Positions 7,767-32,622 of a stretch of DNA of 32,622 nucleotides are shown here, in pieces. Source of the stretch: Deltaproteobacteria bacterium (lineage in GTDB: Bacteria > Myxococcota > Myxococcia > Myxococcales > 40CM-4-68-19); contig JANYKT010000104.1 of NCBI GenBank assembly GCA_025358085.1, positions 1-32,622 of the forward strand, in the 5' to 3' direction. Positions within the stretch are counted from its first letter, which is position 1. The number at the start of each line of letters is the position of its first letter. The translations under genes and the position numbers were made by a program. The notes under the pieces were generated by a model that searched no databases, was not told the DNA's origin, and saw only the letters and a list, made by a program, of their open reading frames with translations.

Positions 7767-7773
7767 GGGAAGA

Positions 7774-10700
7774 TCAGTGCCTTTCGTTGACCGCCGTCTG
7801 AACCGCTGCGGGGCCTGCCGCGACCTTGCGCAGCAGGGAAGCGTCGAGCCGCCCGAGGAAAGCGCGGAACGCCGGATAGTCCATAGGCTTGAGCAGCCCG
7901 CCATTCAAGCTGAGCTCGAGCCGCGCCGTGACCTTGCCATCCTGTCGCGACCAGGCGATCGAATACTCGCCCTGCGCGCCCGACTCGTGCGTGCTCTCGG
8001 GGAGCGTTGCGCTCCAACCGGCCGGCAGCGTGACCGTCGATTCAATGACCGTGCGCTGCGGTACCGGCAGGCGCTCGGGCAACGCGCGGCGGGAGAGCTG
8101 GGCGTAGGCCTCGACGAAGCTCTGGCGCTGGCCGAATGGAGAGAAGCGCAAACCCGCGCCGGAAGCCGAGGCGAAGGTCCGGGCGCTGGCGGTGAAATGG
8201 GTGCTGAACGGGCTCTCGATGTCGTGCGGATCAGAGACGTCCACCGCGGTCACCTTCGCTCCCGGGAACGCCGACCGCGACAGCTGCTCTTCGGCGTGGT
8301 TGCGGCGTTCGTCGGCTGACTCAAAAGTGCGGCGCAGTTCGGAGGTCCACGAGCCGCGGGCGCTGGCTTTGTAATCGATCGACGCGCTGCCGTCCTTGAG
8401 CAGCGAGGCGAGGATATGAGTCTCGTCGGTATTGTCGGCGGGGTTCGCCTCGGGCGTGCGGACAAAGCGCGAGCCTGTGCCGCCCGGCTCGACGATGAGC
8501 GCGTACGCCGCGCGGTCGTCCGCCGGCAATTCGCGCGAGCCGTGGAACTCGGCGGTGCCGTCGAGGAAGAGATCAAACCTGGGCACATAAAGGATTGCGT
8601 GATTGAAGACCGCAAGCGACGCCGGCGCGGTCTCGATGCTTCCCAGGCGGGTCATGCGGAGCAGCGCCAGCCGCGAGTCGATACCGATGCTCTCCAACAT
8701 GGCGTGCATCAGCGAGGCCTTGTCCTTGCAGTCGCCGAAGCGGCGACTGAGGATGACCTCGACCGGATAAGGCTTGAATGAATTGATACCGAATTCAAGC
8801 CCGACATAACGAGTGTTCGAGACCACGAAATCGTAGACGGCGCCGATGCGCGCACGCTCATCGGTGTCGGCGATGCCCTTGACTGCCAGCGTGGCAGCGG
8901 CCTTGATTTCAGGGGTGACGCGCAGCTGGTCCTTGACCAGGCCCCAGTAGAACTTTCCGACGCTCTCCCAGTCCTTGTAAGTCGAGACGTGGACGTAGGC
9001 GAGCAGCTCGCTGTAGCCGGGCATCGACGGTTCGGGCACGAGCTTCCGCACGTCGTGCGCGGTCCAGCGTTGCCACGTGCCGCCGTCCGGCGACTTGCCC
9101 TCGGCGTGGATCAGGCCCGGCAGCGCGCTCGCGGTTGCATAGAAAGTCCGGCCCGCGGGCCCGAGCAGGACATAGTCGGCGATGCGTTTTTCCTGCGTTC
9201 CCTGCAGGTACGAAAAGTCGCCGAAGTAATCGGCGAAGAAGTTTGCGCCAGAGTCGTCGGTGCGGGTGACCACCTCGAGCGCGTCGCCGGGTTCGAGCTG
9301 CGCGAAGGAAATGACCCGCGCGCGCAAATCATAATAGAGGCCATACCAAGGCTCGGAGAGGCTGCGCTCGCCCTCGCTGCGGCTCTCGAGGATGGTGCCG
9401 TCCTTGCGGAAGATGCGCGCGCGCTCGACCTTCACCATCTGGCGATCGGGCGAATACTGCACGCTCTGGGTGCGCGCCTGATCGACGCCGCGCGCATTCA
9501 AAGGCCGGATGACCAGCTGGCGGGTGCGGCTGGAGAGACCGTTCGCGAAGACCTTGGTGACCTCGAGGTCGGCCAGGATCTCGAGATCCTCGTTGGCGAC
9601 CGGCAGGGACTTGAGCAGGGCGCGCGGGTCATAGAGATATTGCGAGGCGTACTGCTCTTCGGGCCGAACGCTGCGGACCAGCTCGCGCAGGGTCGGGTTT
9701 TGCGGGCGCAGCGAGAGCGAACGGGCGAATGCAGCCAGCGCGCCCGTGTCGTCGGCGCTGCGCAGGCGGTGGCGGCCGAGCTGCTCATGGACTTCGGGAT
9801 CGTCGGGCGAGAGCGCCACGGCTTGCGCGAAGGCGGCATCCGCTTTGGCGGTGCGGCCGTTCTGCGAGAGCACTTCAGCAGCGCGCAGTCGCGGCCGCAG
9901 AGCCGCCGGGTCCAGCGAGACGGCGTCGCCGATCAGCTTGAGAGCGGAGTCGACGTCGCCGCGGTCGAGCAGTGTCGAGGTCAGTTCCGCGCGCGCTTCG
10001 CCGTCGTCGAAGCGGGCGGCGATGGCGGCTTTCAGCTCCTGGGCCGCTTCTTCGCCGCGGCCCATGCGGCGGAGCGCCGTGGCTGCGGCGCGGTGCGCGC
10101 GGGCGAGGTCGGGATGGGCACGGGCGGCGTCGACGCGGGCCAGCGCTGCGCGGGCCGAAAGTCCCACGGCGTCGAGTGCGCGCGCCTGCGTCAGCACGGG
10201 CTCGAGCGCGCGCGGGTCGGCCTCGCGGGCCTGGGAGGCCAGCTCCAACGCCTGCCAGCCTTCGCCACGCTCCAGCCGGTAGTCGGCGAGCGCGTCCAGC
10301 AGGAACGGATTCTTCGGGTGCGCCAGAAGCGCCGCATCCAGCGTGGCCCTCCGCTTGTTGGCGTCGCGATCTTCCAGCTGCGCCAGCCGCAGCGCGATCT
10401 CCGCGTCGGCCGGCGCAGCCTCCGCCGCGCGCTCCATGGCGTGCAGCGGGAGCCGCTCACCATCGTCGCTGGGGCGACGGTAATTGAGCAGGATGGCCAG
10501 GTCTTCCTGCGCACGCGCGTCCTGCGGATCCCTGGCTGCAAGCTCCTTGAGTTCGCTGACCGCGTCGAGCAGCTTCCTCGCCACCGGCAGGATCGCGGGG
10601 GCTTCCCTCGTGTTCACCACCAGCACCGCGTGGCGCGCGCCCGGCTCCTGCGCCGCTTTGGCTATGGCGACGAGCGGTGCGTCTTTTTGATCCGCGACAC

Positions 10701-11484
10701 GCAGGCTGTAGCCGAGGCGACCCGTCGAGTGCGCGATCTTCAGCAGCAGCGTGTTCTCGCCCGCCGTGAGCTCGGCCCTGAAAGAAGCCTGATCATAGCG
10801 CGAGGGGTGCAGCGCCAGGTCCTCGTGAATGAGCCTGCCATTGAGCCAGAAGCGCACTGCGCCGCTGGCGCCGAGGTGGAAGACGATGGAGCGCGCCTTC
10901 TCGCTGCGCAGCAGGGTAGCGGCGTAGACGGCGACATCGGCGCGTGGCGAAATGGCAGAGCTCAAGTCCACATAACCGAACGGCGCGTTGTCCGGGGAGA
11001 GCGCACGCCAGACGACGTCATGCTCCTTGCCGGGATAGCTGGCCTTTGGGTTGTACCCGTCCTTTTCGGGTCCATAGACGGCGGCCAGCCCGCCCCGGCC
11101 TTCGTTCGCAAAGGGTCCGATCACCGACCAGGCACGTACGGGTGCTACCGAGTCGATGAGGGCCTCTGCCTGCGGCAGCTGACCGTGCGCGATGGCCATC
11201 TGCGCGCGCAATTCGACGGCGAGCGCTCGCACGTCGGGGCGAGCTTTGCCGTCATTGGCGGTAGCGTCGAAGGTCTGCTCCAGCGGCGCGAGATCGCCCT
11301 GATCTTCGCGGCGTTCGAAGAGACGGTAGAGGTCTGGAAGTGCCTGGACGCGGCCCATCTCGCCAATGATGCGCGAGCGAAGCTCAGGCGTCGCCGGGTC
11401 CCACTGCGACTGGGCGAAGGCCCCGATCGGCAGCAGTGCGGCGGCGAGGACCAGGCGAACGGCGTTGCGAGCAGACCTGTGCAT
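7774..11484 (-). CDS. Periplasmic TPR/DUF3857/transglutaminase-like protein with intact triad
   Basis: A 1236-residue protein from the ATG at 11484. Residues 1-24 (ending LLPIGAFA) form a signal peptide. Around 100-270 is a beta-sandwich with SIVFHLGASGAVRFWLNGRL, then TPR repeats (about 300-640), a DUF3857 domain (RQLVIRPLNARGVDQ, FRKDGTILES), a transglutaminase-like core, and a C-terminal beta domain. The core keeps Cys919 in GDCKDKASLMHAML, His962 in FNHAILYVP and Asp975 in LFLDGTAEF. Spacing and motifs match the papain-like triad of bacterial transglutaminase/protease domains, so an enzyme acting on peptides or proteins in the periplasm is likely; the reaction is not predictable. It is the first gene of a two-gene operon with the catalytically degenerate lipoprotein, and it diverges from the nucleotidyltransferase module. 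No clear Shine-Dalgarno sequence precedes the ATG. Confidence 0.85.
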   Translation of the reverse strand: MHRSARNAVRLVLAAALLPIGAFAQSQWDPATPELRSRIIGEMGRVQALPDLYRLFERREDQGDLAPLEQTFDATANDGKARPDVRALAVELRAQMAIAHGQLPQAEALIDSVAPVRAWSVIGPFANEGRGGLAAVYGPEKDGYNPKASYPGKEHDVVWRALSPDNAPFGYVDLSSAISPRADVAVYAATLLRSEKARSIVFHLGASGAVRFWLNGRLIHEDLALHPSRYDQASFRAELTAGENTLLLKIAHSTGRLGYSLRVADQKDAPLVAIAKAAQEPGARHAVLVVNTREAPAILPVARKLLDAVSELKELAARDPQDARAQEDLAILLNYRRPSDDGERLPLHAMERAAEAAPADAEIALRLAQLEDRDANKRRATLDAALLAHPKNPFLLDALADYRLERGEGWQALELASQAREADPRALEPVLTQARALDAVGLSARAALARVDAARAHPDLARAHRAAATALRRMGRGEEAAQELKAAIAARFDDGEARAELTSTLLDRGDVDSALKLIGDAVSLDPAALRPRLRAAEVLSQNGRTAKADAAFAQAVALSPDDPEVHEQLGRHRLRSADDTGALAAFARSLSLRPQNPTLRELVRSVRPEEQYASQYLYDPRALLKSLPVANEDLEILADLEVTKVFANGLSSRTRQLVIRPLNARGVDQARTQSVQYSPDRQMVKVERARIFRKDGTILESRSEGERSLSEPWYGLYYDLRARVISFAQLEPGDALEVVTRTDDSGANFFADYFGDFSYLQGTQEKRIADYVLLGPAGRTFYATASALPGLIHAEGKSPDGGTWQRWTAHDVRKLVPEPSMPGYSELLAYVHVSTYKDWESVGKFYWGLVKDQLRVTPEIKAAATLAVKGIADTDERARIGAVYDFVVSNTRYVGLEFGINSFKPYPVEVILSRRFGDCKDKASLMHAMLESIGIDSRLALLRMTRLGSIETAPASLAVFNHAILYVPRFDLFLDGTAEFHGSRELPADDRAAYALIVEPGGTGSRFVRTPEANPADNTDETHILASLLKDGSASIDYKASARGSWTSELRRTFESADERRNHAEEQLSRSAFPGAKVTAVDVSDPHDIESPFSTHFTASARTFASASGAGLRFSPFGQRQSFVEAYAQLSRRALPERLPVPQRTVIESTVTLPAGWSATLPESTHESGAQGEYSIAWSRQDGKVTARLELSLNGGLLKPMDYPAFRAFLGRLDASLLRKVAAGPAAVQTAVNERH

Positions 11485-17231: not shown

Positions 17232-18788
17232 TCAGTGCACGACAAGGGTCTTTCCTGACATTGCGGCCGGCTGCGGAAGACCCATCATCTGCAGCAGCGT
17301 GGGTGCCACGTCCGCGAGGATGCCGTCCTCGCGCAAGCGCGCCCCTTTCAGCGCCGGATCGCAGAGATAGATGGGCACTGGATTGAGCGTGTGCTGGGTA
17401 AAGGGCTCTCCGCTTTGGTAGTCAATCATCTGCTCGACATTGCCGTGATCGGCGGTGACCACCATGGCAATGCCGTTCTTGCGCGCGACTTCCCAGAGCC
17501 GCCCGATGCACTCGTCCACCTTGGCGACCGCCAGCAGCGCGGCCGGCAGCACGCCAGTGTGACCGACCATGTCCGCATTGGCGTAATTCACCAGCGTAAA
17601 ACCGAACCGCGGGATGGCCCGCTCCAGCTTTTGCGTCACCTCTTCCGCTGACATCTCGGGCTTGAGATCATAGGTCTTCACCTCGCGCGGGCTGGGCACC
17701 AGGATGCGCTCCTCGCCCGGGAACGGCGTCTCGCGCCCGCCGTTGAAGAAGAAGGTGACGTGCGCGTACTTCTCGGTCTCGGCGCAGCGCAGCTGTTGCG
17801 CGCCCGCCTGGCTCACCAGCTCGGGAAGAATCTGCGTCGGCGGGTCGGGCAGGAATGCGCAGGGCAAACCGCGCTTGGTGAAGGTTTCGTCGTATTCGGT
17901 GAGCGTGACGTAGCTTGCGAGCTGCGGGCGCGCCTGTCGAACCCCGGCGCCGGGCGCATCGTCGAAGGCAAGCCAGGCCGTCAGCTCCCGCGCACGGTCG
18001 GCGCGGAAATTGAAGAAGATGACGCTGTCGCCGTCGCGGATCAGCCCGCGCGGCGCGCCGTCGGGCCCGCGCACCACCGTGGGCTGGATGAACTCGTCGC
18101 CCTCCTTGATGGCGTAGCTCCTTTTCACCGCTTCGGCACCGCTCTTGGCCGAGAGGCCTTCGCCGCGCACCATCGCTTGATAGGCGCGTGCGACGCGGTC
18201 CCAGCGCTGGTCGCGATCCATTCCGTAATAGCGGCCGCTCACGGTGGCGACGCTCGCGTGCATGCCGTCGTCGCTCGATTGCTTTTGTAGAGTCTGCTCG
18301 AGCTTCTCAACGAACCCGAGACCGGAGCTGGGCGAGCAGTCGCGGCCGTCGGTGAGCGCGTGCACGAAGACGCGGCGCACGCCCTCGCGGCGCGCCATCT
18401 CCACCAGCCCGAAGAGATGGTCGAGCGAGCTGTGCACGCCGCCGTCCGAGACGAGCCCGATGAGGTGGAGCGCGCCTGCCCTGGCTTTCTGCATCGCGGC
18501 TTTCAGCGGTGCGTCGTGGAAAAGCTCGCCCGACTCGATGGCACGATTGATGCGAACCAGGTCCTGGTAGACGACGCGCCCTGCGCCGAGGTTTGTGTGG
18601 CCCACTTCGCTGTTCCCCATCTGCCCTTCCGGCAGCCCGACCGCGAGGCCCGAGGTCAGGAGTTGCGCGTGGGGGAACTGCCTGGCGAGCTTGTCAAGAT
18701 TGGGCGTGCCTTGCAGCGCGATGGCGTTTCCGTCGCGGCGCGGGTTGATGCCCCAGCCGTCGAGAATGACAAGGAGGACAGGTTGCAT
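17232..18788 (-). CDS. gpmI: 2,3-bisphosphoglycerate-independent phosphoglycerate mutase
   Basis: A 518-residue enzyme of normal length that interconverts 3- and 2-phosphoglycerate in glycolysis and gluconeogenesis, in the cytoplasm. It starts MQPVLLVILDGWGI, with Asp10 as a metal ligand. Ser60 in GQMGNSEVGHTNLGAG is the nucleophile that carries the phosphate. Other family motifs are VHALTDGRDCSP, YYGMDRDQRW, FNFRADRARELT, NYANADMVGHTG and VTADHGN, the last two holding the second metal site. All key residues seen are intact. The ATG at 18788 is well placed; the gene diverges from the alpha-2-macroglobulin gene with 82 bp between, which must hold both promoters. The DUF309 frame follows directly after its TGA. 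Confidence 0.96.
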   Translation of the reverse strand: MQPVLLVILDGWGINPRRDGNAIALQGTPNLDKLARQFPHAQLLTSGLAVGLPEGQMGNSEVGHTNLGAGRVVYQDLVRINRAIESGELFHDAPLKAAMQKARAGALHLIGLVSDGGVHSSLDHLFGLVEMARREGVRRVFVHALTDGRDCSPSSGLGFVEKLEQTLQKQSSDDGMHASVATVSGRYYGMDRDQRWDRVARAYQAMVRGEGLSAKSGAEAVKRSYAIKEGDEFIQPTVVRGPDGAPRGLIRDGDSVIFFNFRADRARELTAWLAFDDAPGAGVRQARPQLASYVTLTEYDETFTKRGLPCAFLPDPPTQILPELVSQAGAQQLRCAETEKYAHVTFFFNGGRETPFPGEERILVPSPREVKTYDLKPEMSAEEVTQKLERAIPRFGFTLVNYANADMVGHTGVLPAALLAVAKVDECIGRLWEVARKNGIAMVVTADHGNVEQMIDYQSGEPFTQHTLNPVPIYLCDPALKGARLREDGILADVAPTLLQMMGLPQPAAMSGKTLVVH

Positions 18789-18870
18789 GACTGCAACGAT
18801 TAGTGTGCCGCGCTCGCGGAAGCAACGATGTCAGGGGCCCGGTGTACATTCCGCGCCCCGGGGGTTCTTC

Positions 18871-21800
18871 ATGCGCAATCTCGCTCTGCTGCTCCTGTTC
18901 ATGACCGCCTGCACACGCAGCCCGCCGAGTGCCAGCGCACCTTTGCCGCCGCGGCGCGAGCTTTCAGCGCCGCCGCCGCCCCCTCAAATTGAAATCCAGC
19001 CGCGCTCGGCGGAGGGCGAAGAAACAGCCTTCCGCGTGCTGGTGGCGCGGCCGCAGGGCAAGCTGCTCGGCGGCGTGCACCCGACGCTGACCTTCAGCGA
19101 GCCGGTGGTGGCGCTCGCGACTCTCGGCCAAAAGGACCCCACCACGACGCTGCAGATGGTGCCCAAGGTAGCTGGGCGCTGGCACTGGCTCGGCTCGTCT
19201 TCCGTGGAGTTCGTCAACGACGAGCCGTTCCCCTACAGCACTGCCTTTCACCTGGTTGTACCGCAGGGCTTTGCCTCGCTGAACGGCGCCCGGCTTGCGC
19301 AGGCGTACCAGCTGGACTTCACCACGCCCACCGTTGAGGTGGACCGGTACGGCATCCAGCCGGACGAACACCAGTGCCGCTGGTCGCTGCCGGATCAGCA
19401 TTTCAAAGTCCTCGTCAATCAGCCGCTCAAAGACCCGGCGACGAACTTCTTTTTTCAGGTCGGCGACCAGAAGCGGCGGGTCGATGTCAAGGTCATCGGC
19501 TCGGTCAATCTGGTGGAGGAGCAGCGGGCGAAGCATCCCGAGCGGCGGCTGGAGACGCCCACGGCGCTCGGCTTCAAGGACCAGCGTACGCGCTACGAGT
19601 TCGCGCCGGCAGAGAGCCTGCCGCTCGAAACTGCTTTTTTTGTCGGGCTCGACGCTGAAGCGCACGGCGCCCAGGGAACGCTCACTGCGGGGCAGGAGTG
19701 GCGCATTCAATGCTCGACGCCGGGTCCAATGCTGATCCAGAGCGTCAGCCGCTGCTCGCAGGAGCAGGATCACTGTGCTGCTGGGCCGCTGACGATTCAA
19801 TTCACCAACCCCATCGCGTCCAGAAAGGCGCTGGCGTCGTTGGTGCACGTCGCGCCCGATCCCCAAGTCGACTACGAGGATGATGACGACAACAGATCTC
19901 CGTACCAGACTACGGTTGCGCTCGAGGGCCACTACCGCCCGGGCCAAGTTTACACCGTCCACATTGACGCAGGCGTGAAGGATCGCTTTGGCCAGGCGGC
20001 GCCGGCCTTCGATGCGAAGGTCACCCTGGATGACTTGCTCCCGTCGCTCTACCTGGGGGGTGAGAAAGCGCTGCTCGAAGCGGACGGCGACGGGCAGCTT
20101 CCCGCGCAGGTCACCAACCTCGACGAGCTGGACGTCGATCTCTGGCGCGTGTCGCCGCAGCAGATGGCGAAATTCGAGCTGTGCAGGGGCCGGGGAAATG
20201 GCTGCCAGGCGCTGCCGTCCGCAGCGCCCGATGTCCCGCTGCAACTCAAGCTCTCCTATCCGCGCAACGAGCCGCACCTGCACGGTGTCGATCTGCGCGC
20301 CGCGCTGGGTGGAGGCAAGACCGGCCTCGTGATCGCCCGCTTGCGAGCGCCTGGTACGCCCTTCGCAGACCATCCGCTGCAGGTCTACGCGCAGCTCACC
20401 GATCTGGCGGTGCACGCGAAGCTGGGCGCGACGGGCGGGCTCGCCTGGGTCACCTCGGTCTCGACCGCGAAGCCGGTGGCGAAGGCGGCGGTGCAGATCT
20501 TCAATCTCAGCGGTGTGCAAGTCGCCGACGCAGTCACCGATGAGCAGGGCATCGCGCTGCTGCCGGGCTACACCGAGCTGGGCCCGAAAAGCGACTACGA
20601 GACGCCGCGCCTGCTGGTGGCAGCCACCTCCGGCGGTGACACCGGCTACGTCACCACCGAGGGCTATGACGAGTTCGTGGCTAGCCAGATCAACCGCGAC
20701 TTCAACGCCGCGCACACGCGCGGCCTGGGGCTGGTCTTCGGCGACCGTGGCATCTACCGGCCTGGCGACACCGCCCACCTCAAGGCCATCCTGCGCACGC
20801 AGGGAGCGGGCGTGCTTTCCACGCCGCCCGAAGGCAGCAAGGTCCACATCGAGGTGACAGACCCGGAGGGCAAGGACGTGCTTTCGCGCGATGTCGCGCT
20901 CTCGAGCTTCGGCACTTTCTCGGTAGACGTGGCGGTCGCCCGCGAGGTGCGGCTGGGCACTTTCTCGGTCTCGGTGCGCGACGCCGGCAAGTTGCACTAC
21001 GCCTATGCAAGCTTCCGCGTTGCCGAGTACCGGGCTCCCCAGTTCCGGGTCGACGTGATGACGCCCAGCCCGGAGCTCACCGCGGGGGACGCACTCACCG
21101 GCTCGGTGGTGGCGCGCTATCTCTTCGGCGGCGCCATGGACCGTGCGCAGGCCTCCTGGAGCGTGCATCGCACGACGGAAGAGTTCGCGCCGCCGCGCAA
21201 CGACGGCTTCAGCTTCGGCCGCCAGACCTGGTCTTGGGACGATGGCACGCCGGGCCACGATGCGAGCACGTTCGCCACAGGGCAGGGCGAGATCGACTCC
21301 ACTGGCACGCTGCAAGTGAAGGCCGGCAAGGTCGAGGCAATGGCGGACCGCACCGCGCGTTACACGCTCGAGGCGGAGGTGGCCGACGTCTCGCGCCAGC
21401 GCGTTGCGGGGCGCAACGGGGTGCTGGTGCATCCGGCCGAATTCTATGTCGGGTTGGGCAAGATCGACCTCTTCGCGCGCGTGGGACAGGAGACCCGGCT
21501 GCCGGTGGTTGCGTCCCGGCCGGACGGGGCCCGCGTGAGCGCCGCGGTGCACGTCAGCGTTCTGCTGCGGGCCTGGCACTCGGTGCGGAAGAAGGGCGTG
21601 AACGGCGTCTACCAGACCGTCAGCGAGCTGGTGGAAGAGAAGGCTGCCGAGTGCGATGTCAAGACCTCTGACACGTCGCAGGATTGCAAGTTCACGCTGC
21701 AAAAGCCGGGCTTCTTCACCGTCCGGGCGGAGGCGCGTGACGCGGCCGGGAGGCTCGCGCTCTCGACCACTTCGCTTTACGCCGTCGGCGCGGGCGAAGC

Positions 21801-24705
21801 CGCCTGGCAGCAGACCGACACGCCACGCGTGGACCTGGTGCCCGACAAGACCGCGTACCAGGTCGGCGACACGGCGCACCTGCTTGTCAAGTCGCCGTAT
21901 TCTTCCTGCGAGGCGCTGGTCTCGGTCGAGCGAGAAGGCATCGCGGAGCAGCGCGTGCTTACGCTGTCGGGCAGCGCGACCACCCTCGACGTGGCCATTA
22001 CCGAAGCGATGGTGCCCAACGTCTTCGTCGGCATCATCTTGCAGCGCGGACGGGTCGCGCAGGGCACGGCGCCGCAGGACGCGACGGCGAGACCGGCAGC
22101 GCAGGCTCAACCGGCCGTGCAGGCTCAGACGACCGTTACCGAGGGCGATGATCCGGGCCGGCCCTCGGTGCGGCTCGGCTACGCGGAGCTGTCGGTCGGC
22201 AAGGGCGTCAAGCGGCTCGCGGTCACAGTCAACACGCCGCAGGCCGAGTACAAGCCGCGCGAGACGGTCCCCATCGACGTGGTTGTCAGCGACGCTGCGC
22301 AGAAGCCCGCCCGGGCGGAGGTGCAGCTTTATGTGGTCGACGAGGCGGTGCTGCGGCTCACCGCGTACCAGCTGCCCGACGCGCTGGAGGCAATCTTCCC
22401 GCGGCACGGGCTGTCCATCGCTATCGGCGAGCCGCTGGCGCGGCTGGTTCGCCGGCAGCGGTTTGGCGAGAAGGGCGAGGTGGTGACCGGCGGCGGCGGC
22501 GGACTCGAACCTTCCGGGGACGTGCGCTCGAAGTTCGTCACCACGGTTGCCTGGCAGACGCTGCTCACCGATGACAAAGGCCACGCGCACGCGGACGTGG
22601 TGCTCCCCGACAACCTGACCACCTTTCGCATCATGGCGGTCGCCGCCACCGCGGGTGACCGCTTCGGCGGCGGCGAGGCGGCGATCCGCGTGGCGCTTCC
22701 GCTCCTGGTCCTGCCGGCGCTCCCACGCTTCGCGCGGGTCGGCGACGACTTCGAGGCCGGCGTTGTGGTTCATTCGCTGACCGCGGCCGAGGTCGAGGTC
22801 ACGGCCCAAATGTCCGGCGGCGTCGAGCTGGTCGACCAGAAGCAGAGCCAGCTGCACGCAAGCGTCGAGGCGGGCGTTGCCAGGGAGGTGCGATTCAAGC
22901 TGCGCTCGACCGCGCCTGGCAAGGCCACGCTGCGTTTCCGCGCTACCGCCGGCAGCCTGAGCGACGCGGTGGAGCAGACCATCCCCATCCAGCTGCCGGT
23001 CGAGCTGGAGGCGGTCGCGCTTGCGGGCGACACAGAGGGGACCGCCGGTCCAGAGTCGAAGCAACGCCCCGCCGACCGCCTCGTCATCCCCAAAGGCGTG
23101 CGGCCCGGAATCGGCGGCCTGGAGCTGCAGCTCTCCTCGACTGCGCTCGGCGGCTTGTCGGAAGGGATGCAGCAGCTGGTCGATTACCCTTACGGCTGCA
23201 TTGAGCAATTGTCATCGCGGCTGGTGCCCTTCGTGGCACTGCGCGAGGTCTCGCGTGTATTCGGTGTCGAGCCACCGGGGATGCCCGGTCTGGGCCGCGA
23301 TCCTGATGAGGTGGTGCGTACCACCATCGGGAAGATCGAATCGCAGCAGGCGCCGTCCGGTGGCTTCTACTACTGGCCCACGCCATCCTGCGCCTATGCG
23401 TGGCCGTCCATCTACGCCACGCTGGCCCTGCACCGCGCGCGAGAGCTGGGCTATCCGGTCAAGCGCGAGACGCTCGCCCAGGCGCGCCGCTTCCTTGCCG
23501 AGAAAGCGGCTGGCACGGGAGCGTGCGAGTCCGAGAAGATCGGTCCCGAGACGCGCGCGTTCGCGCTGCAGGTCCTCGCGCGCATGGGAGATCCCAAGCC
23601 CAGCTATTACGACGAGCTGTATGTGCAGAAGGACAAGCTGCCGCTCTTCGGAAAGGCGCTGCTTGCCGACGCCATGGCGTTGACCAAGGGCGGCCGGCCG
23701 CGCGCCAACGCGCTCTTGCAAGACCTGCTCGACGCGGCTCGTGAGACGGCGCGCGAGGTCCACTTCGAAGAGAACGCCGCCGGGAGCTACGCGCCGCTGA
23801 TGTCGAGCGACACCCGCACGACCGGCATGGTGCTGCAGACGCTGGTCGACCTGCAGCCGCAGCATCCGTACGTCTCGAAGATCGCGCGCTACCTTTCGAA
23901 CGTGCGCAAGGGCGGCCAATACCGCAGCACCCAGGAGGCGGCCTACGCGCTGATGGGACTTGCCGAAGTGGTGCGGCTCAGGGAGCGCACCGCGCCCGAT
24001 TTCGTGGCGCGGGTGTTGCTGGGCGAGAAGGAGCTCGTCTCGCAGCCCTTCAAGGGACGGTCGCTCACCATCCTCTCGAAGACGCTGCCGATGCAGCAGC
24101 TGCTGCAAGGCGGTCCTTCGCTTCCCCTGCGCTTCGCGGCCGACGGTTCGGGCTCACTCTTCTACACGGCGCTGCTGCGCTACGCGCCCTTGGCCCTGCC
24201 GACCGAGCCGCGCAGCGAAGGCATCTTTGTGCAGCGCTGGTTCGAGCCGTATGACCAGCCCGGAAAGCTCTCGACCGACTTCAATGCCGGCGAGCTGGTG
24301 CGCGTGCAGGTCCGCATCGCGACCTCAGAGGAGCGCAACTTCGTCGCGGTTGAAGTGCCGCTGCCGGCTGGGCTCGAGGCGGTGGACACCTCGCTCGCGA
24401 CCACCAGGCAGGCCACGCGCGGTAGCGATGACCAGGAAGGCTCGCAATCAATGGACGAGGCCGCCGATGACTCGTTCTGGAGCCCGTTCGACTACAGCGA
24501 AAAGCGCGACGACCGGGTGCTCTACTTCTCGGACCACCTGCCGCCCGGTGTGCACCTGCAATCGTTCATCGCGCGCGCGACAACGCCGGGGAAATTCGTG
24601 CTCAAGCCAGCGCACGCTGAAGAAATGTACGCGCCCGAGGTGTTCGGCCGCAGCGATGGCGGAACGCTGACGGTCAGCGCGGTGCGGCCGCTGGCGCAGA
24701 AATGA
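18871..24705 (+). CDS. Bacterial alpha-2-macroglobulin lipoprotein with thioester
   Basis: A 1944-residue protein from the ATG at 18871, chosen because it begins with a lipoprotein signal (MRNLALLLLFMTAC, Cys14). Upstream in-frame codons belong to the gpmI antisense. Macroglobulin domains fill the N-terminal half, with the MG2-type motif FGDRGIYRPGDTAHLKAILR around residues 620-640. An A2M-type segment follows later (TTVAWQTLLTDDKGHAHADV, then LPDNLTTFRIMAVAAT). The thioester motif PYGCIEQ is intact, with Cys1443 and Gln1446, so the protein can trap attacking proteases covalently. Family knowledge: the E. coli counterpart (YfhM/ECAM) sits in the periplasm next to PBP1C. This one is larger than the E. 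coli protein (about 1650). It overlaps pbpC by 4 bp (ATGA), so the two are translationally coupled, matching the known wall-repair partnership. Confidence 0.93.
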   Translation: MRNLALLLLFMTACTRSPPSASAPLPPRRELSAPPPPPQIEIQPRSAEGEETAFRVLVARPQGKLLGGVHPTLTFSEPVVALATLGQKDPTTTLQMVPKVAGRWHWLGSSSVEFVNDEPFPYSTAFHLVVPQGFASLNGARLAQAYQLDFTTPTVEVDRYGIQPDEHQCRWSLPDQHFKVLVNQPLKDPATNFFFQVGDQKRRVDVKVIGSVNLVEEQRAKHPERRLETPTALGFKDQRTRYEFAPAESLPLETAFFVGLDAEAHGAQGTLTAGQEWRIQCSTPGPMLIQSVSRCSQEQDHCAAGPLTIQFTNPIASRKALASLVHVAPDPQVDYEDDDDNRSPYQTTVALEGHYRPGQVYTVHIDAGVKDRFGQAAPAFDAKVTLDDLLPSLYLGGEKALLEADGDGQLPAQVTNLDELDVDLWRVSPQQMAKFELCRGRGNGCQALPSAAPDVPLQLKLSYPRNEPHLHGVDLRAALGGGKTGLVIARLRAPGTPFADHPLQVYAQLTDLAVHAKLGATGGLAWVTSVSTAKPVAKAAVQIFNLSGVQVADAVTDEQGIALLPGYTELGPKSDYETPRLLVAATSGGDTGYVTTEGYDEFVASQINRDFNAAHTRGLGLVFGDRGIYRPGDTAHLKAILRTQGAGVLSTPPEGSKVHIEVTDPEGKDVLSRDVALSSFGTFSVDVAVAREVRLGTFSVSVRDAGKLHYAYASFRVAEYRAPQFRVDVMTPSPELTAGDALTGSVVARYLFGGAMDRAQASWSVHRTTEEFAPPRNDGFSFGRQTWSWDDGTPGHDASTFATGQGEIDSTGTLQVKAGKVEAMADRTARYTLEAEVADVSRQRVAGRNGVLVHPAEFYVGLGKIDLFARVGQETRLPVVASRPDGARVSAAVHVSVLLRAWHSVRKKGVNGVYQTVSELVEEKAAECDVKTSDTSQDCKFTLQKPGFFTVRAEARDAAGRLALSTTSLYAVGAGEAAWQQTDTPRVDLVPDKTAYQVGDTAHLLVKSPYSSCEALVSVEREGIAEQRVLTLSGSATTLDVAITEAMVPNVFVGIILQRGRVAQGTAPQDATARPAAQAQPAVQAQTTVTEGDDPGRPSVRLGYAELSVGKGVKRLAVTVNTPQAEYKPRETVPIDVVVSDAAQKPARAEVQLYVVDEAVLRLTAYQLPDALEAIFPRHGLSIAIGEPLARLVRRQRFGEKGEVVTGGGGGLEPSGDVRSKFVTTVAWQTLLTDDKGHAHADVVLPDNLTTFRIMAVAATAGDRFGGGEAAIRVALPLLVLPALPRFARVGDDFEAGVVVHSLTAAEVEVTAQMSGGVELVDQKQSQLHASVEAGVAREVRFKLRSTAPGKATLRFRATAGSLSDAVEQTIPIQLPVELEAVALAGDTEGTAGPESKQRPADRLVIPKGVRPGIGGLELQLSSTALGGLSEGMQQLVDYPYGCIEQLSSRLVPFVALREVSRVFGVEPPGMPGLGRDPDEVVRTTIGKIESQQAPSGGFYYWPTPSCAYAWPSIYATLALHRARELGYPVKRETLAQARRFLAEKAAGTGACESEKIGPETRAFALQVLARMGDPKPSYYDELYVQKDKLPLFGKALLADAMALTKGGRPRANALLQDLLDAARETAREVHFEENAAGSYAPLMSSDTRTTGMVLQTLVDLQPQHPYVSKIARYLSNVRKGGQYRSTQEAAYALMGLAEVVRLRERTAPDFVARVLLGEKELVSQPFKGRSLTILSKTLPMQQLLQGGPSLPLRFAADGSGSLFYTALLRYAPLALPTEPRSEGIFVQRWFEPYDQPGKLSTDFNAGELVRVQVRIATSEERNFVAVEVPLPAGLEAVDTSLATTRQATRGSDDQEGSQSMDEAADDSFWSPFDYSEKRDDRVLYFSDHLPPGVHLQSFIARATTPGKFVLKPAHAEEMYAPEVFGRSDGGTLTVSAVRPLAQK

Positions 24706-26996
24706 ACCGCCCGCGGACTCCGTTGAGCCGCGGGTTCGTACTGACTGCGGGGCTGGGCGGTCTCTGTCTGCTGGCAGCAGTGCTGTGGCCGCTGCCGCCG
24801 GCAGAACTCGCGCTCGCGCGTGCCAGTTCGCTTCGAGTTCTGGCGAGCGACGGCACCCTGCTGCGTGAACTCGCCTCCAGCACTGCCGAGGGTCACGCGG
24901 CGCCGGCGCGACTGGATGCGCTGCCGGCCGACGTCTGGCAAGCCTTCGTGGCCGCAGAAGACAAGCGGTTCTGGTCGCATCCGGGAATCGATCCGCTCGC
25001 GGTGCTGCGGGCGCTCCGTGAAGATCTGCGGCAGCGGCGATTCGCCCAGGGCGCGTCCACGATTCCGCAGCAGCTCGCGCGCCTGCTGCGCCCGCACCGG
25101 CGCGGCTTGTTCGGAAAGCTCGGTGAGGCGGTGTTCGCGGTGCGGCTGAGCGCGCACCTCAGCAAGCGGGAAATTCTGGAGCAGTACCTGACGCGCGTGC
25201 CGCTCGGAAACGACATCCGCGGTGTCGAGGCCGCGGCGCGGCTCTACTTCGATCGACCGGCCGCGGCGCTCACCCCGCTGCAGGCGGCGCTGCTCGCAGC
25301 GCTGCCGCGCAGCCCGGCGGCGCTTGATCCTTTGCGACAGCCGGGACGCGCGCGGGCCGCGGCCTTGCGGGTGCTCGCGCGCATGGAAGCCTGCGGCTAC
25401 CTGAGCGCGAACGACTTCGCGAACGCCCCGCTCGACCTCGCCACCGAGCGCTTTCGGCGTGCGTTCGAGGCGGCCCACTTCGTCGAGGAAGCGGCGCGGC
25501 ATCGCACGCCCGAGGGCGCGGTGACCGTCGAGACCACGCTTGACCTCGCGCTCCAAAGGGCAGTCGAGGGCGCCGTGCGGGAGCAGGTCTTGCAGCTGCG
25601 GGACCGCAACGTCAGCAGCGCCGCGGCGCTGGTGATCGACAACGACAGCGGCGAGGTGCTGGCCTGGGTCGGCTCGCCGGACTGGTTCGACGAGGCACAT
25701 GCCGGCCGCATCGATGCGGTGCGGACCCGCCGGCAGCCCGGGAGCACCCTCAAGCCATTCGCCTACGCCCGCGCGATGGAGCTGGACGCGCTGACGCCAG
25801 CGACCTTGTTGTCCGATGTCGAGTCGCACTTCTCCGCTGCCAGCGGTGACTACGTGCCGAAGAACTACGACCGGCGCGCGCACGGACCGGTGCGTGCCCG
25901 GGTGGCGCTTGCAAGTTCGTACAACGTCCCCGCGGTGCGCGTGGCCGAAAAGCTCACCGCGCCGGGCCTCTTGCGCGCGCTGCACCAGGCAGGCTTCGAC
26001 AGCCTCGTTCTGGACGCCGAGCACTACGGGCTCGGCTTGGTCCTCGGCGACGGCGAAGTGACACTGCTGGAGCTGGCTCGCGCCTATGCCGGTATCGCGC
26101 GCGGCGGCGTGCTGCAGGACCTGACGCTTTTGCGTCGCGCGCTCGACGCGCACGGCAAGCCGCTGCCGCTGCTGCCGCCGGCCTTCCCTCCGCGCCGCAT
26201 GATGACTTCCGCGACCACGGCGCTGGTGACCGACATCCTCGCCGACCCCGCGGCGCGGGCTCCCTCTTTCGGCCTGGACAACGCGCTTCGGCTGCCGTTC
26301 CGGGTCGCCGCCAAGACCGGCACCTCGCGGGCTTTCACCGACAACTGGACCGCCGGGTCCACGCGCGAGCGGACGGTCGCGGTCTGGGTCGGCAACATGA
26401 GCGGCGAGACCATGCGCCACGTCAGCGGCATCACCGGCGCGGGTCCGCTCTTCCAGCGAGTGATGACGCTCGCCATGGCCGGCATCGAGAAGCCGGCGCC
26501 CCTCTGGAATGATCGCACGCTCGAGTCGCACGAGGTCTGCGCGCTGTCGGGCAGCCTGGCCACGGAGTTCTGTCCCTCGCGCGTCAGCGAACGCTTCGCC
26601 GCGGGCACGGCGCCAACGCAGCCCTGCGAGATGCACTCGCGCAAGGGGCTCGATCTGGGCCCCCGCTTCTATGACTGGGCCGCGCACCAGGGGGTGGAAA
26701 CGCTCTCGCTCTCGACGTCCGGCGCTGCCCAGGCCGCGCTCGCCTTTCCAACGGATGGCGACGAGTTCCTGCGCAGCCCCGACCTGCCAGACACCGCGCA
26801 GACCATCCCGGTGCGCGCGCTCGCACCCGCGGGAGGTGAGGCGCTGGAGCTGCGCCTGGACGACGGCGAGCGCACAGCACTGCAGGCGCCCTTCAGCACC
26901 CGCATCCCGGCCCGCCGCGGCCATCACGAGCTTCGCCTCTATCGCCGCGGCCTCGCCGACCCCGACGCGCGGGTTTTCTTCGAGGTCAAAGGCTGA
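24702..26996 (+). CDS. pbpC: Penicillin-binding protein 1C (bifunctional transglycosylase/transpeptidase)
   Basis: A 764-residue protein whose ATG at 24702 overlaps the stop of the alpha-2-macroglobulin gene. One membrane segment lies at about residues 12-30. The glycosyltransferase domain (GT51) has the catalytic Glu86 in AAEDKRFWSHPG and GASTIPQQLARLL (117-129). The transpeptidase domain has Ser348 and Lys351 (PGSTLKPFAYA), the SYN motif (406-408) and KTGT from Lys538. The C-terminal PBP1C-specific domain includes CALSGSLATEFCPS and ends with a beta fold. All catalytic motifs are intact. It polymerises and cross-links peptidoglycan; with its upstream partner it is thought to repair the wall where a protease or predator has breached the envelope. 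Its stop lies 46 bp from the convergent rlmH stop. Confidence 0.95.
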   Translation: MNRPRTPLSRGFVLTAGLGGLCLLAAVLWPLPPAELALARASSLRVLASDGTLLRELASSTAEGHAAPARLDALPADVWQAFVAAEDKRFWSHPGIDPLAVLRALREDLRQRRFAQGASTIPQQLARLLRPHRRGLFGKLGEAVFAVRLSAHLSKREILEQYLTRVPLGNDIRGVEAAARLYFDRPAAALTPLQAALLAALPRSPAALDPLRQPGRARAAALRVLARMEACGYLSANDFANAPLDLATERFRRAFEAAHFVEEAARHRTPEGAVTVETTLDLALQRAVEGAVREQVLQLRDRNVSSAAALVIDNDSGEVLAWVGSPDWFDEAHAGRIDAVRTRRQPGSTLKPFAYARAMELDALTPATLLSDVESHFSAASGDYVPKNYDRRAHGPVRARVALASSYNVPAVRVAEKLTAPGLLRALHQAGFDSLVLDAEHYGLGLVLGDGEVTLLELARAYAGIARGGVLQDLTLLRRALDAHGKPLPLLPPAFPPRRMMTSATTALVTDILADPAARAPSFGLDNALRLPFRVAAKTGTSRAFTDNWTAGSTRERTVAVWVGNMSGETMRHVSGITGAGPLFQRVMTLAMAGIEKPAPLWNDRTLESHEVCALSGSLATEFCPSRVSERFAAGTAPTQPCEMHSRKGLDLGPRFYDWAAHQGVETLSLSTSGAAQAALAFPTDGDEFLRSPDLPDTAQTIPVRALAPAGGEALELRLDDGERTALQAPFSTRIPARRGHHELRLYRRGLADPDARVFFEVKG

Positions 26997-27946: not shown

Positions 27947-29314
27947 TCATGGTCGCACCTGTCCGTCGCCACGCACGACGAAGCGGGTGCAGGTGAGTTC
28001 GCGCAGGCCCATCGGGCCATACGCGTGGAGCTTGCTGGTGGAGATTCCGATCTCGGCGCCCAGGCCGAGCTCGCCGCCGTCATTGAAGCGGGTCGAAGCG
28101 TTGGAGACAACACACGAGGCATCGACTTCGCGCAAGAAGCGTTCCGCGAGCGCCTCGGAGCGGGTGCAGATGGACTCGGTGTGCCGGCTGCCGTAGCGCG
28201 CGATATGTCGCAGCGCCCCGTCGAGACCGTCGACCACCGCGACGGCGATCGTGAGCTCAAGAAATTCGCGGCCGAAGTCGTCGGGCTGCGCCAGCACCGC
28301 GCGGCCGGTTCCGCCGGTTCCGCCGGCTCCGGATCTCGACAGCGGTGCATTGCCGGTTGGCACGACTTGCGTAGGGGGTCCCCACTCTTGCCAGGATCGC
28401 CAGGCTCGGTCGTCGAGGCGGACTTCGACGCCGTGCTCGAGGAGCGCGCGCGTGAGGACTGGCAGCGCCTCGGCGGCCACCGCTGCATCGACGAGCAGGC
28501 ACTCGAGCGCGTTGCACACGCCCGGCCGTTGCGTCTTTCCATTCACCGCCAGGCGCGCGGCGAGGGCGAGGTCCGCGTCGGCTGCGACGTAAAGATGACA
28601 CACACCTTGATAGTGCTTGATGACCGGGATTCGCGAGCGCTCGGAGATGAAGCGAACGAGGGACGGGCCGCCGCGCGGGATGCAGAGATCGATCTGGTCC
28701 TCGAGCTGCAGCAGCTCGCCAAGCAGCGCGCGATCGGGCGCGACGAGCTGGGCGGCCTCCTCCGGGAGCCCCGCGCGCGCGAGCGCCCGCTGCGCGCAGC
28801 CGAGCAGCACCGAGCTCGTCTGCAGCGCCTCGGACCCCGGACGCAGCAGCACCGCGTTGCCGCTGCGCAGGCAGAGCGCGGCGGCTTCTGCAGTGACGCC
28901 CGGGCGCGACTCGTAGATCATCAGGATCACACCCAGCGGCACGCGCACTCGCTCGACGCGCAGGCCATTGGGGCGCACCTGCCGCTCGACCACCTCGCCC
29001 ACGGGATCAGGCTGCAGCAAAATCGCGCGCACCGACTCCGCGAGCGTGCGCAGCCGCGGCCCGTCGAGCCGCAGCCGATCGAGGAACGCTGCATTTTGGG
29101 CCGCCGCAAAGCGCAGGTCGGCCTCGTTTGCGATTGAGACCGCCTCCGCCGCGGCGAGCAGCTCGTCGGCGAAGAAGCCAATTGCGGTCGCCCGTTGCTC
29201 CGCGCTGGACCGCGCCAGTTGCCGCCCCGCCAGCTGCGCGCGAGTGGCCAGCTCCCGCGCCGCAAGCTGCTGATCGAGCGACGCGGCCCCGGGCCCGGCC
29301 GGTTGGCAGCTCAA
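27947..29314 (-). CDS. proA: Gamma-glutamyl phosphate reductase ProA, TTG start
   Basis: A 455-residue enzyme, second step of proline synthesis: NADPH reduction of gamma-glutamyl phosphate to glutamate semialdehyde. I place the start at the TTG at 29314-29312, which overlaps the proB stop as TTGA; further upstream the frame is only the antisense-like shadow of proB. Family motifs include [54 protein letters not shown] and [16 protein letters not shown], with the catalytic Cys in RPGVCNA. The end, [20 protein letters not shown], is typical. Compared with the E. coli enzyme it carries about 24 extra residues, Gly/Thr/Ser-rich, after QVVPTGN around residue 315-340 (DNA near 28295-28375). Part of the proB-proA-rsfS-rlmH operon. 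Confidence 0.95.
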
Positions 29315-30435
29315 GTAACCACCAGATCGTCGCGGTGCACGACGCAGTCGAGCAGCCGATAGCCGAGCTGCGTCTCGATGTCCGAACTCTTCCGGCCCGC
29401 GATGCGCCGCACCTCGTCCGCGCCGTAGACCGCCAGGCCCCGTGCGAAAGCGCAGCCGTCGAGTCCCGAGATCTCGACCGGGTCGCCGGAGGAGAAGCTG
29501 CCCATCACCTCGCGCACGCCGCTGGGGAGCAGGCTCTTCTTGCCCGCGACCACAGCCTCTCGCGCGCCGTCGTCCACCCGCAGCTCGCCGCGCGTCTTCA
29601 AGTCCAGCATCCAGCGTTGCCGCAGCGTCCTCCGCTCGCCCTGCGGCAAGACCAGCGTGCCGACGTCCTCGCCCGCGAAAAGCCGCTGCAGCATGAGCGG
29701 TTCGCCGGCTACGATGGCGCAAGGGACGCCCGCCTCGGTGGCGCGCCGGGCCGCGCGCAGCTTGGTGATCATCCCTCCGGTGCCGACCGCGGACCCGGCG
29801 GAAAACGGAGACCCGGCCAGCGCCTCGACCGCCGGTGTGACGCGATCGATGACGGAGATCCTCTGTGCTTTTTTGTCCTTGCGCGGGTCGGCCGTGAAGA
29901 CGCCGCCCGCATCGGTGAGGATGACCAGCAGGTCCGCCTCGACCAGGTCGACCACCATGGCCGCGAGCGAGTCATTGTCGCCGAACTTGATCTCCTCGAC
30001 CGAGACCGTGTCGTTTTCATTGATGACCGGAAGCACGCCGCGCTCGAGCAATGCGCCCAGCGCCCGGCGCGCATTGAGGTAGCGCCCGCGGTTGGTGATG
30101 TCCGCATGGGTCAGCAGCACCTGCGCGCAGTGCACCCCGCGCTGTTCGAAGTGGTCGTCGTAGAGCCGCATCAACAGGCTCTGCCCCGCGGCTGCCGCTG
30201 CCTGCTTGAGCGCCATCTCGCGCGGCCTCGACTTGAGCCCCAGCCGCTCGACCCCGAGCGCGACCGCGCCGCTCGTCACCACCAGTGGCCTGCGCCCCGC
30301 GCAGACCGCGAAGACGTCGTCACACAGAGCGGCGAACCGGGCGCGGTCGAGGCTGCCTTTGGCGGCCAGCACTGCCGAGCCGATCTTGATGACCGGACGA
30401 CGGCAGCGCATGAGGAGGGTGCGATCGAAGGGCAT
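29311..30435 (-). CDS. proB: Glutamate 5-kinase ProB with PUA domain
   Basis: A 374-residue enzyme from the ATG at 30435; ATG at 30411 ([15 protein letters not shown]) and 30459 are alternatives. It phosphorylates glutamate at the gamma carboxyl, the first and feedback-regulated step of proline synthesis. The amino acid kinase domain shows [50 protein letters not shown] and [17 protein letters not shown], then [12 protein letters not shown]. The last 80 or so residues form the PUA domain ([32 protein letters not shown]). It is the first gene of the operon; its promoter should lie between the start and the repeat block that begins near 30514, leaving only about 80 bp of unique sequence. Confidence 0.95.
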
Positions 30436-30513
30436 TTTTATCTTCTTGTCTTCTAGCAAATTCGCTTGCTTCCGGCCTCTGCAAATGCTGGGCGGGCTTT
30501 CCGGGTCTCACTC

Positions 30514-30810
30514 GATAGGCGGCGCTGGGGCCGCCGGGGATCCGGGCATCCCGCGCGCCCCTCCGGATGCGTGGCCGCGCGGTTCTGCGCGTTCTCCTCG
30601 CGCTCGGTGGTCGGGGCGGCCCCGCAAACGTCGGGCGCGCAGAATGCCCGGCATCCCCGGCTCAGCGGACGCCTCTCGGGAGACCCCGGGGGGCCTCGCG
30701 CGCGGTTCGCGTGGCGCCGCCACCTCGCTTTGCTGGCGGCAGCGAGCGCCCGGCGTAGCAAGCAAGAAAGGGAGCAAGCGAGTCATCTATCAAAGTCGCC
30801 AGCAGGAACG
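30514..30810 (+). repeat. Structured dispersed repeat, copy R1
   Basis: A 297-bp unit that starts GATAGGCGGCGCT and ends GCCAGCAGGAACG, where copy R2 begins at once. Inside it, 30534-30560 and 30633-30660 form an imperfect inverted repeat of 27-28 bp with four or so differences, enclosing a 72-nt loop. A further 150 bp follow, with GGGAGACCCCGGGG and a purine-rich AGCAAGCAAGAAAGG tail. No convincing gene lies in it, although its high GC leaves several chance open frames. Confidence 0.9.
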
Positions 30811-31133
30811 ATAGGCGGCGCTGTCGCCGCCGGTGATCCGGGCATCCCGCGCGCCCCTCCGGATGCGTGGCCGCGCGGTTTCTGCGCGTTCTCCTCGCGC
30901 TCGGTGGTCGGGGCGGCCCCGCAAACGTCGGGCGCGCAGAATGCCCGGCATCCCCGGCTCAGCGGACGCCTCTCGGGAGACCCCGGGGAGCCTCGCGCGC
31001 GGTTCGCGTGGCGCCGCCACCTCGGCCTTGCTGGCGACCGGCGAGCGCCAGCGTAGCAAGCAAAAGAAGCAAGCAAAAGAAGCAACAGAGCAAGCGACGC
31101 CAGCGAGTCGTCCATCAAACTCGCCAGCAGGAA
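30811..31133 (+). repeat. Structured dispersed repeat, copy R2
   Basis: A direct copy of R1, nearly identical over the first 220 bp (for example one extra T in CGGTTTCTGCG). The hairpin arms are at 30830-30856 and 30930-30957. The tail is longer because a 13-bp unit AGCAAGCAAAAGA occurs twice in tandem (31055-31067 and 31068-31080). It ends in the same GCCAGCAGGAA as R1. Confidence 0.9.
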
Positions 31134-31182
31134 TTGCCAACCAGGTTGATCTGGATCTTGAATTTGTCCCGACGTAACCGAT

Positions 31183-31302
31183 GCTGCCGACCGCGAGATG
31201 CGGACGCCACGCGAGCAGCCAGCAGCGCCCTGTGGGGTCTCTCGAGCGGCGGCCGCCAAGCCGCGGGATGCCCGGATCCCCGGCGGACGCACCGCCCCTA
31301 TT
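31183..31302 (-). repeat. Structured repeat, inverted copy R3 lacking its centre
   Basis: An inverted, shorter copy of about 120 bp. It matches R4 through GTGGGGTCTCTCGAGCGGCG and GCCGCCAAGCC, then jumps directly to CGGGATGCCCGGATCCCCGG and the terminal CCTATT. Compared with R4, about 105 bp are missing: one hairpin arm plus the loop. Confidence 0.8.
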
Positions 31303-31380
31303 GGCCGACCAAACACCGCTTCTCGAGGGCTACAGCCCCCTCTCCCGAGCCCACGCTGAGTCGCCTGGAAGCGAGTCGTC

Positions 31381-31606
31381 GCTGCCGATCGCGAGGTGCG
31401 GACGCCACGCGAACAGCCAGCAGCGCTCCGTGGGGTCTCTCGAGCGGCGGCCGCCAAGCCGGGGAGGCCGGGCATTCTGCGCGCCCGACGTTTGCGGGGC
31501 CGCCACGACCGCCGCTCGCGAGGAGCCTGCGCAGACCCGCGCGGCCACGCATCCGGAGGGGCGCGCGGGATGCCCGGATCCCCGGCGGACTCGAGCGCCT
31601 CCTATT
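31381..31606 (-). repeat. Structured repeat, inverted copy R4
   Basis: An inverted copy of about 226 bp, more diverged from R1/R2 but with all parts present. Hairpin arms lie at 31459-31486 and 31558-31584, and the unit ends in CCTATT, the complement of the ATAGG that opens R1 and R2. The purine-rich tail of R1/R2 is not evident on this copy. Confidence 0.85.
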
Positions 31607-31664
31607 GAGGAGAAACCCAGAGAAGCGATGCGCGCAGCAAGCGGCATCTATATAAAGAGAGCAA

Positions 31665-32622
31665 GTGAAAGAAGAGCTCTTTGGGAATCTCGCCGGCCTG
31701 AAAGCAAGCCACACGCGGCGCCTGCTTGCTACCTTTCGGCGGCGCGTACAGCAGCGCGAGCTGGTCTCGGCCGAGCTGGCGCGCCACCTCACCGAGGTTT
31801 CGCGCGAGACAGGACGGCAGGTTGGCGTCCTGCTCAATCGGCGCGGCGAGGTCGAGCACGTCATCGTCGGCGACGCGCGCCAGCTGGAGCTGCCGGACAT
31901 TGGCCGTGCACGCGCTGGCCAGCTGCGCCTGCGCGGCCTGCGGCTCATTCATACGCATTTGAAAGACGAGGCGCTGACCCGCGACGACTTCACCGACCTG
32001 GTGCTGCTGCGGCTCGACGCAGTCGCGGCCATCGTCGCGCGCGAGGACGGCCTGCCCGGCAAGGTTTTTCTCGCCACGTTGCTGCCGTTCAATCCCAAGG
32101 GTGAATTGCACCGGCTCGTCGAGGCCCCGTCGCTCTTCGATTTGCAGTGGGACGCGCAAGAGGAGTTCGCCGCGCTGGAGCAGGAGATGGCGCGCGCGGC
32201 GCCCTCGCACACCACCGGCACCGAAGGCCGCGCCATCCTGGTGTCGGTCTTCACCAAGGACCGTCCCGGCGCCGAGGCGTCGATGGCCGAATTGAAAGAA
32301 CTCGCGCGCACCGCGGGAGTCGAAGTGCTGGATGTAGTGCTGCAGGGCCGCCGCGAGATCGACCCGCGCACGCTCATAGGCGAAGGCAAGCTCTCGGACG
32401 TGCTGGTGCGCTCGATGGCGCTGGGCGCGGACCTGCTCGTCTTCGACCGCAACATGACGCCGTCGCAGGGGCGGCACATCGCCGAGAAGACCTCGCTGAA
32501 GATCCTTGATCGGACCCAGCTCATTCTCGATATCTTCGCCCGCCGCGCGCAGAGCGCCGACGGCAAGCTGCAAGTCGAGCTGGCGCAGCTCAAGTACATG
32601 CTGCCGCGGCTGGTCGGCAAAG
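31665..32622 (+). CDS. hflX: Ribosome-associated GTPase HflX, 3' end outside window
   Basis: The first 319 codons of an HflX-type GTPase. The GTG at 31665 is the only start after the in-frame TAA at 31653-31655. The N-terminal part (KEELFGNLAGLKASHTRRL, QVGVLLNRRGEVEHVIVGD, LRLIHTHLKDEALTRDDFTD) is an extension seen in longer HflX proteins. From about residue 195 the conserved HflX N-domain begins (AELKELARTAGVEVLD, DPRTLIGEGKLSDV, DLLVFDRNMTPSQ, LKILDRTQLILDIFARRAQS, LQVELAQLKYMLPRLVGK). The window ends just before the expected G domain, so the nucleotide-binding motifs are not visible. HflX binds the 50S E site and splits stalled or heat-damaged ribosomes. TATAAA at 31651 or so, 8 nt before the GTG, could be a -10 element for a nearly leaderless message. 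Confidence 0.93.
   Translation, partial: MKEELFGNLAGLKASHTRRLLATFRRRVQQRELVSAELARHLTEVSRETGRQVGVLLNRRGEVEHVIVGDARQLELPDIGRARAGQLRLRGLRLIHTHLKDEALTRDDFTDLVLLRLDAVAAIVAREDGLPGKVFLATLLPFNPKGELHRLVEAPSLFDLQWDAQEEFAALEQEMARAAPSHTTGTEGRAILVSVFTKDRPGAEASMAELKELARTAGVEVLDVVLQGRREIDPRTLIGEGKLSDVLVRSMALGADLLVFDRNMTPSQGRHIAEKTSLKILDRTQLILDIFARRAQSADGKLQVELAQLKYMLPRLVGK

Follow-up and report, generated by a model that had tools for sequence, protein, structure and literature searches.

The window analyzed here is a stretch of 32,622 nucleotides corresponding to contig C8 of the host assembly (5.42 Mb, 217 contigs, 98% complete). Near its end, proB and hflX are transcribed divergently, and the gap between them holds four copies (R1–R4) of one GC-rich, hairpin-forming unit of approximately 220 nt. 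The probable start of proB is at about 30435, and hflX was matched in all 13 of the other genomes searched. Elsewhere in the window, a large bacterial alpha-2-macroglobulin gene is followed by a penicillin-binding protein gene with transglycosylase and transpeptidase domains (18595–26996), which is an ordinary pairing. Two large adjacent DUF3857 genes, one of which also has TPR and transglutaminase domains, lie on the minus strand at 3882–11484, and their open frames overlap at 7774–7904. The features in and around the gap are listed below.

29311–30459, minus strand: proB (glutamate 5-kinase; AA_kinase and PUA domains), flanking gene outside the element
30465–30512, no strand: outer flank of R1, from blastn against the outer flank of the copy on contig C19
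30513–30732, plus strand: R1, full copy with edge GATAGG, hairpins H1 and H2, and inner edge CACCTCGC
about 30535–30665 and about 30668–30725, plus strand: R1 hairpins H1 (long) and H2, respectively, from the fold
30733–30808, plus strand: R1 tail, CTGGCGGC...AGCAAGC...GTCGCCAGCAGGAA, duplicated in tandem along with R1
30809–31030, plus strand: R2, full copy, tandem duplicate of R1
31031–31133, plus strand: R2 tail, an expanded A+G-rich form of the R1 tail
31189–31303, minus strand: R3, copy that has lost the long hairpin H1 by deletion and matches R4 at 91% identity over the sequence present in both
31387–31607, minus strand: R4, full copy, a mosaic of H1 and H2 affinities
31665–32622, plus strand: hflX, running off the contig end, flanking gene outside the element

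The coordinates and strands of the copies bear out the arrangement proposed in the earlier note, with R1 and R2 in direct tandem and R3 and R4 inverted, and the block edges given there (30514 and 31606) are correct within a base or two. The outer edge ATAGG, said to be common to all four copies, is present in each of them, as GATAGG in R1 and R2 and as AATAGG in R3 and R4. The second motif described after this edge, CCGCCGGGGATCC, occurs in R1, R3, and R4 and not in R2, which has CCGCCGGTGATCC. An inner inverted repeat had been claimed for three copies, and R1, R2, and R4 do keep it (columns 24–51 with 125–153); its "loop" of approximately 73 nt is itself largely paired in the consensus fold, and R3 has lost the repeat by internal deletion. 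R1 and R2 share 94% identity over approximately 265 nt, and the tandem unit measures 296 nt, including the 76-nt tail. Such a short A+G-rich tail follows both R1 (76 nt) and R2. R1 and R4 form a 198-nt inverted repeat with 87% identity. Outside R1, positions 30456–30508 (53 nt) match the sequence outside the C19 copy (extract L003, about 1740–1795) with 75% identity, the extended loci of R1 and C19 match at an E value of 7e-7 in blastn, and the sequence CATTTGCAGAGGCC is shared by the two flanks. This likeness suggests that the unit of the R1/C19 subfamily may be approximately 50 nt longer, the outer flank probably belonging to it.

The host genome was searched with the unit, as had been proposed, and six more copies were found at four other loci; their edges are conserved, and the arms show compensatory changes. 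The unit thus does not occur only here, nor is it part of a coding gene, the two findings that would have spoken against a mobile structured element. In total, ten copies at five unlinked loci were identified using blastn, a profile search, and two covariance models, and they are distributed as follows.

C8 (the window): four copies
C19: one copy
C54: two copies, inverted
C191: two copies, inverted, enclosing the wreck of an IS1595-type transposase at about 7728–8217 (extract L006, 977–1466; identified from the open reading frame and Pfam)
C124: one copy

Seven copies are full (209–222 nt), and the other three (R3, C54b, and C124) have independently lost hairpin H1, with three different breakpoints. 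The hairpin-deleted C124 copy reached an E value of 0.3 with the covariance model and corresponds to the short forms from one edge to the other; the E value of 6e-10 obtained for it came from a profile whose building included this copy. The neighbors differ locus by locus (proB/hflX; EIIA-man; an ftsY-like SRP54 GTPase; MscS-like/MFS; and RNB exonuclease/hybrid histidine kinase), all five loci look intergenic, and the copies occur in both orientations, upstream and downstream of genes. Their GC content is 74–78%, compared with 66% in a 274-kb sample of the host genome. At all three multi-copy loci (C8, C54, and C191), the copies form heads-out inverted pairs, with the GATAGG edge pointing outward. 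The two C191 copies share 87% identity over 217 nt and approximately 70% with the other copies, a pattern expected if they were opposite ends of a single element. Three clear lineages can be distinguished among the seven full copies (R1/R2/R4/C19, C54, and C191a/b). No more copies were found in 1.49 Mb of the host genome read in pieces. An exact 16-mer scan of genome contigs returned at least 118 stretches, and the unit was absent from the loci read (best E value of 0.09). A short frame, HGAPKPENVLLDRKDNALLSD (extract L186, 10808–10975), is located immediately inward of the C19 copy; it has no Pfam match and looks like a fragment of the catalytic loop of a serine/threonine protein kinase.

Outside the host, a covariance-model search of 11 other genomes of the same family found no copy, and a blastn search of 195 genomes in the phylum returned the unit in the host only, a search that strongly diverged copies would escape. 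Weak blastn matches of 30–55 nt in relatives were attributed to chance similarity of GC-rich sequence, as the profile search found no unit there. Plasmid and phage collections contained no unit, and neither did two pattern scans of viral contigs. As far as could be searched, the family is therefore confined to one genome, and no published description of such a repeat in myxobacteria was found in the literature, mostly the freely accessible part of it.

The start-to-start distance between proB and hflX is 33–107 bp in nine genomes of the same family and 1206 bp in the host, and thus, the block is an insertion. Judged against the relatives, the inserted DNA extends from about 30465 to about 31640, the gap being too diverged between relatives to fix the exact junction. 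The short gap of most relatives contains a AATGTAGCAAA-type motif, which reads TTTGCTACATT from the proB side, and some relatives have TACATT on the hflX side. In the window, related stretches are kept beside both genes (TAGCAAAT at proB and TCTATATAAAG at hflX) with the block between them, which suggests that the block probably separates two putative divergent promoters that were once compact. We infer that these motifs may serve as promoters and that the block may have changed expression; the insertion lies between the −10-like motifs of proB and hflX and, on this view, must have pushed apart the upstream parts of both promoters. No consensus promoter- or terminator-like site was found within the block itself.

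The copies differ in ways that point to recombination among them. R4 is 93% identical to R1 in H1 and 71% identical in H2 and is thus a mosaic, and R1 and the C19 copy are 95% identical in both hairpins. As R1 is closer to C19 (approximately 95%) than to R4 (approximately 85%), R1–R2 and R3–R4 cannot be read simply as opposite ends of a single transposed unit. No target site duplication was found at any monomer or inverted pair; such duplications may have decayed with age here, as described for older MITEs (PMC10969869).

Alignment of the full copies gave a two-arm consensus fold, in which H1 comprises three helices stacked on one another (approximately 42 pairs) and H2 is shorter. Across the seven full copies, both partners had changed in 13 of 63 pairs, and these both-side changes amounted to 23 cells, compared with a mean of 9.3 (SD 2.1) in shuffles, none of 500 being as high; the sequences represent three lineages and hence few independent events. 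Slides by 1–3 columns gave 5–7 both-side cells, and the covariation score was 0.184 versus 0.092. R1 folded better than each of 200 dinucleotide shuffles (z of −3.8) and was the only copy clearly better than its shuffles, with z values of −2.2 for C191a, −1.8 for C54, and −1.1 for C191b. The outer GCGGCGC and inner GCGCCGC edges can pair in the R1 fold but do not in the consensus fold. No Rfam 15 match was obtained for the window (up to an E value of 5) or the other loci (up to an E value of 1). The suggestion of a structured RNA in the earlier note thus holds as far as a conserved structure is concerned, as seen from the covariation, while transcription or action as RNA is hypothetical. Slippage removes long palindromes from bacterial DNA, and this is their usual fate. 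The equalizing of arms through template switching is likewise known in bacteria from the quasipalindrome literature (PMC7202029). Because both processes operate in bacteria, covariation within a palindromic DNA sequence is not, taken alone, proof that it functions as RNA; the arm pairing can be kept by template switching at DNA hairpins or by an RNA role.

The C191 pair closely encloses a truncated open reading frame with a Zn_ribbon_IS1595 domain (27.9 bits; cut-off of 25.4), which goes out of frame near its start and ends before the catalytic domain. It shares 55% and 50% identity with a pair of transposases from genome G018, and its homology to one of these elements extends upstream of the gene into the 34-bp terminal repeat of that element, which places the relic within approximately 30 nt of the inner edge of the palindrome on that side. 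The far end of the relic showed no match to IS1595 ends, the spacers of the other inverted pairs (C8 and C54) showed no IS1595 similarity, and the two G018 relatives had no 217-nt ends of this kind. The host assembly, fragmented as it is into 217 contigs, contained no intact IS1595 transposase or DDE domain. Members of the IS1595 family generate an 8-bp target duplication. We put the chance that the relic and the pair together represent a transposon whose ends are the palindromes at well under even. It is doubtful, and quite improbable on present evidence, that an IS1595-type element truly had these two-arm palindromes of 217 nt as its long, structured ends, with hairpins (DNA or RNA) needed for movement; to our knowledge, such an end architecture is undescribed for this family.

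Taken together, the block is probably a nested insertion derived from a MITE-like family of palindromes, low in copy number and decaying, which possibly represents the ends of a dead IS1595-type transposon. The copies would have been moved in trans by a transposase acting on the ends of heads-out inverted pairs, for which the enzyme wrecked inside the C191 pair is the best candidate, and the palindromes of approximately 217 nt would be the long ends of a transposon whose enzyme was since lost. The R1–R2/R3–R4 array may then have arisen in place through duplications, both tandem and inverted, recombination among subtypes, and hairpin slippage. The pairing of the arms would have been kept by template switching during replication, in which case a function is unnecessary, or by selection on a DNA or RNA hairpin. 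Some of the same observations could be explained with a family that is not mobile now or recently, in which old repeats were locally duplicated and recombined, the arms were homogenized by template switching, and the IS1595 relic came to lie between two copies by chance. R1–R2 is a plain tandem duplication that includes the tail, R4 is a mosaic relative to R1 (93% in H1 and 71% in H2), target duplications are missing, and the relic is found at one of five loci. However, the copies lie on five contigs beside unrelated genes, and the short empty proB–hflX gap in nine relatives demands a way in; we regard this explanation as unlikely.

The mobile, MITE-like family also has to be weighed against a structured RNA that is transcribed, acts in trans or as a cis-regulator, and spread together with a mobile element, its fold being under selection. 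The two-arm fold with its covariation (23 cells versus 9.3 in shuffles) and the R1 fold, which beats all 200 shuffles, would be expected of such an RNA. However, C191b and C54 fold hardly beyond their shuffles (z of −1.1 and −1.8), there is no Rfam match at the window or the other loci, the block lacks promoter- or terminator-like sites, the copies stand in both orientations before and after genes, and three of the ten have lost the main arm, which leaves a selected RNA rather unlikely. Remains of retron repeats resembling msDNA, of the Nannocystis exedens type, were considered as well, as msDNA-like repetitive sequences were reported from this myxobacterium (Lampson and Rice 1997, as cited in PMC6868368) and the host is itself probably a myxobacterium. 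The host genome contains no RVT_1 reverse transcriptase in a search whose positive controls worked, and a retron origin was rejected as highly improbable.

The MITE-like family identified here adds a palindromic family to a lineage for which no MITE family was described in the literature searched. It also appears to illustrate cleanly how an insertion can split a divergent promoter pair that is compact in relatives. Should the link to IS1595 be true, long structured ends would occur on a transposon family known for short ends; without this link, the case is one of ordinary repeat biology.

The family was finally compared with known repeat systems. The earlier note had called the element REP/MITE-like and mobile; a mobile or structured element is supported by the dispersed copies, the empty site, the conserved edges, and the compensatory arm changes, and MITE-like can stand as a working label, while the REP part does not hold. 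Bacterial MITEs are shorter than 500 bp, non-coding, and intergenic, form a long stem-loop, lack their own transposase, and occur in shortened copies (PMC10969869; PMC2229807). Like the MITEs Correia/NEMIS, ERIC/IRU, RUP, QMITE, and Chunjie, the unit is small, non-coding, and intergenic, occurs in several copies, and has a stem-loop and shortened forms. The lengths of the full copies (209–222 nt) differ by non-multiples of three, and frames across the block have no Pfam match. At C191, the paired units may serve as inverted ends of 217 nt. Unlike these MITEs, the unit is not AT-rich (74–78% GC), has few copies and no visible target duplication, and its terminal inverted repeat is a short basal stem, with a partner enzyme that is a candidate. 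Terminal repeats together with a target duplication could not be demonstrated for the unit. Within the IS1595 family, the likeness consists of the one inverted pair (C191) that encloses an IS1595-type relic, whereas the G018 relative ends in an ordinary repeat of approximately 34 bp and not in 217-nt structured ends.

With REP/REPIN sequences, the unit shares extragenic palindromes in inverted pairs and a host that holds Y1 transposases, but it is approximately 220 nt long, compared with 20–40, and has approximately ten copies, compared with hundreds. Fifteen Y1_Tnp-type transposase hits were obtained in the host (contigs C129, C205, C137, C95, C171, C38, C32, C169, C118, C18, and others), all without stops and eleven of them over the cut-off; these are possible RAYT-like genes. 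A search for a RAYT-type transposase with matching flanks, which had also been proposed, found no unit near the Y1 genes at the ten loci read, and the unit is too long and too rare for a REP/RAYT system, which was therefore rejected. CIR elements of Caulobacter and Brucella have two long arms, each independent of the other, with a linker between them (PMC2229807), and the unit is also two-armed; in this comparison by description, it differs in that GANTC is not conserved and is found in R4 only. YPAL/RU-2 elements of Yersinia (approximately 168 bp) are abundant and have target duplications (PMC2229807); they resemble the unit in not being AT-rich, in their internal inverted repeats, and in their intergenic location, and differ from it in being shorter, abundant in their hosts, and flanked by target duplications. 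The repeats between proB and hflX thus form a new family of palindromes, very rich in GC and of a familiar type, for which the broad reading of the initial observation was right and its REP part wrong.
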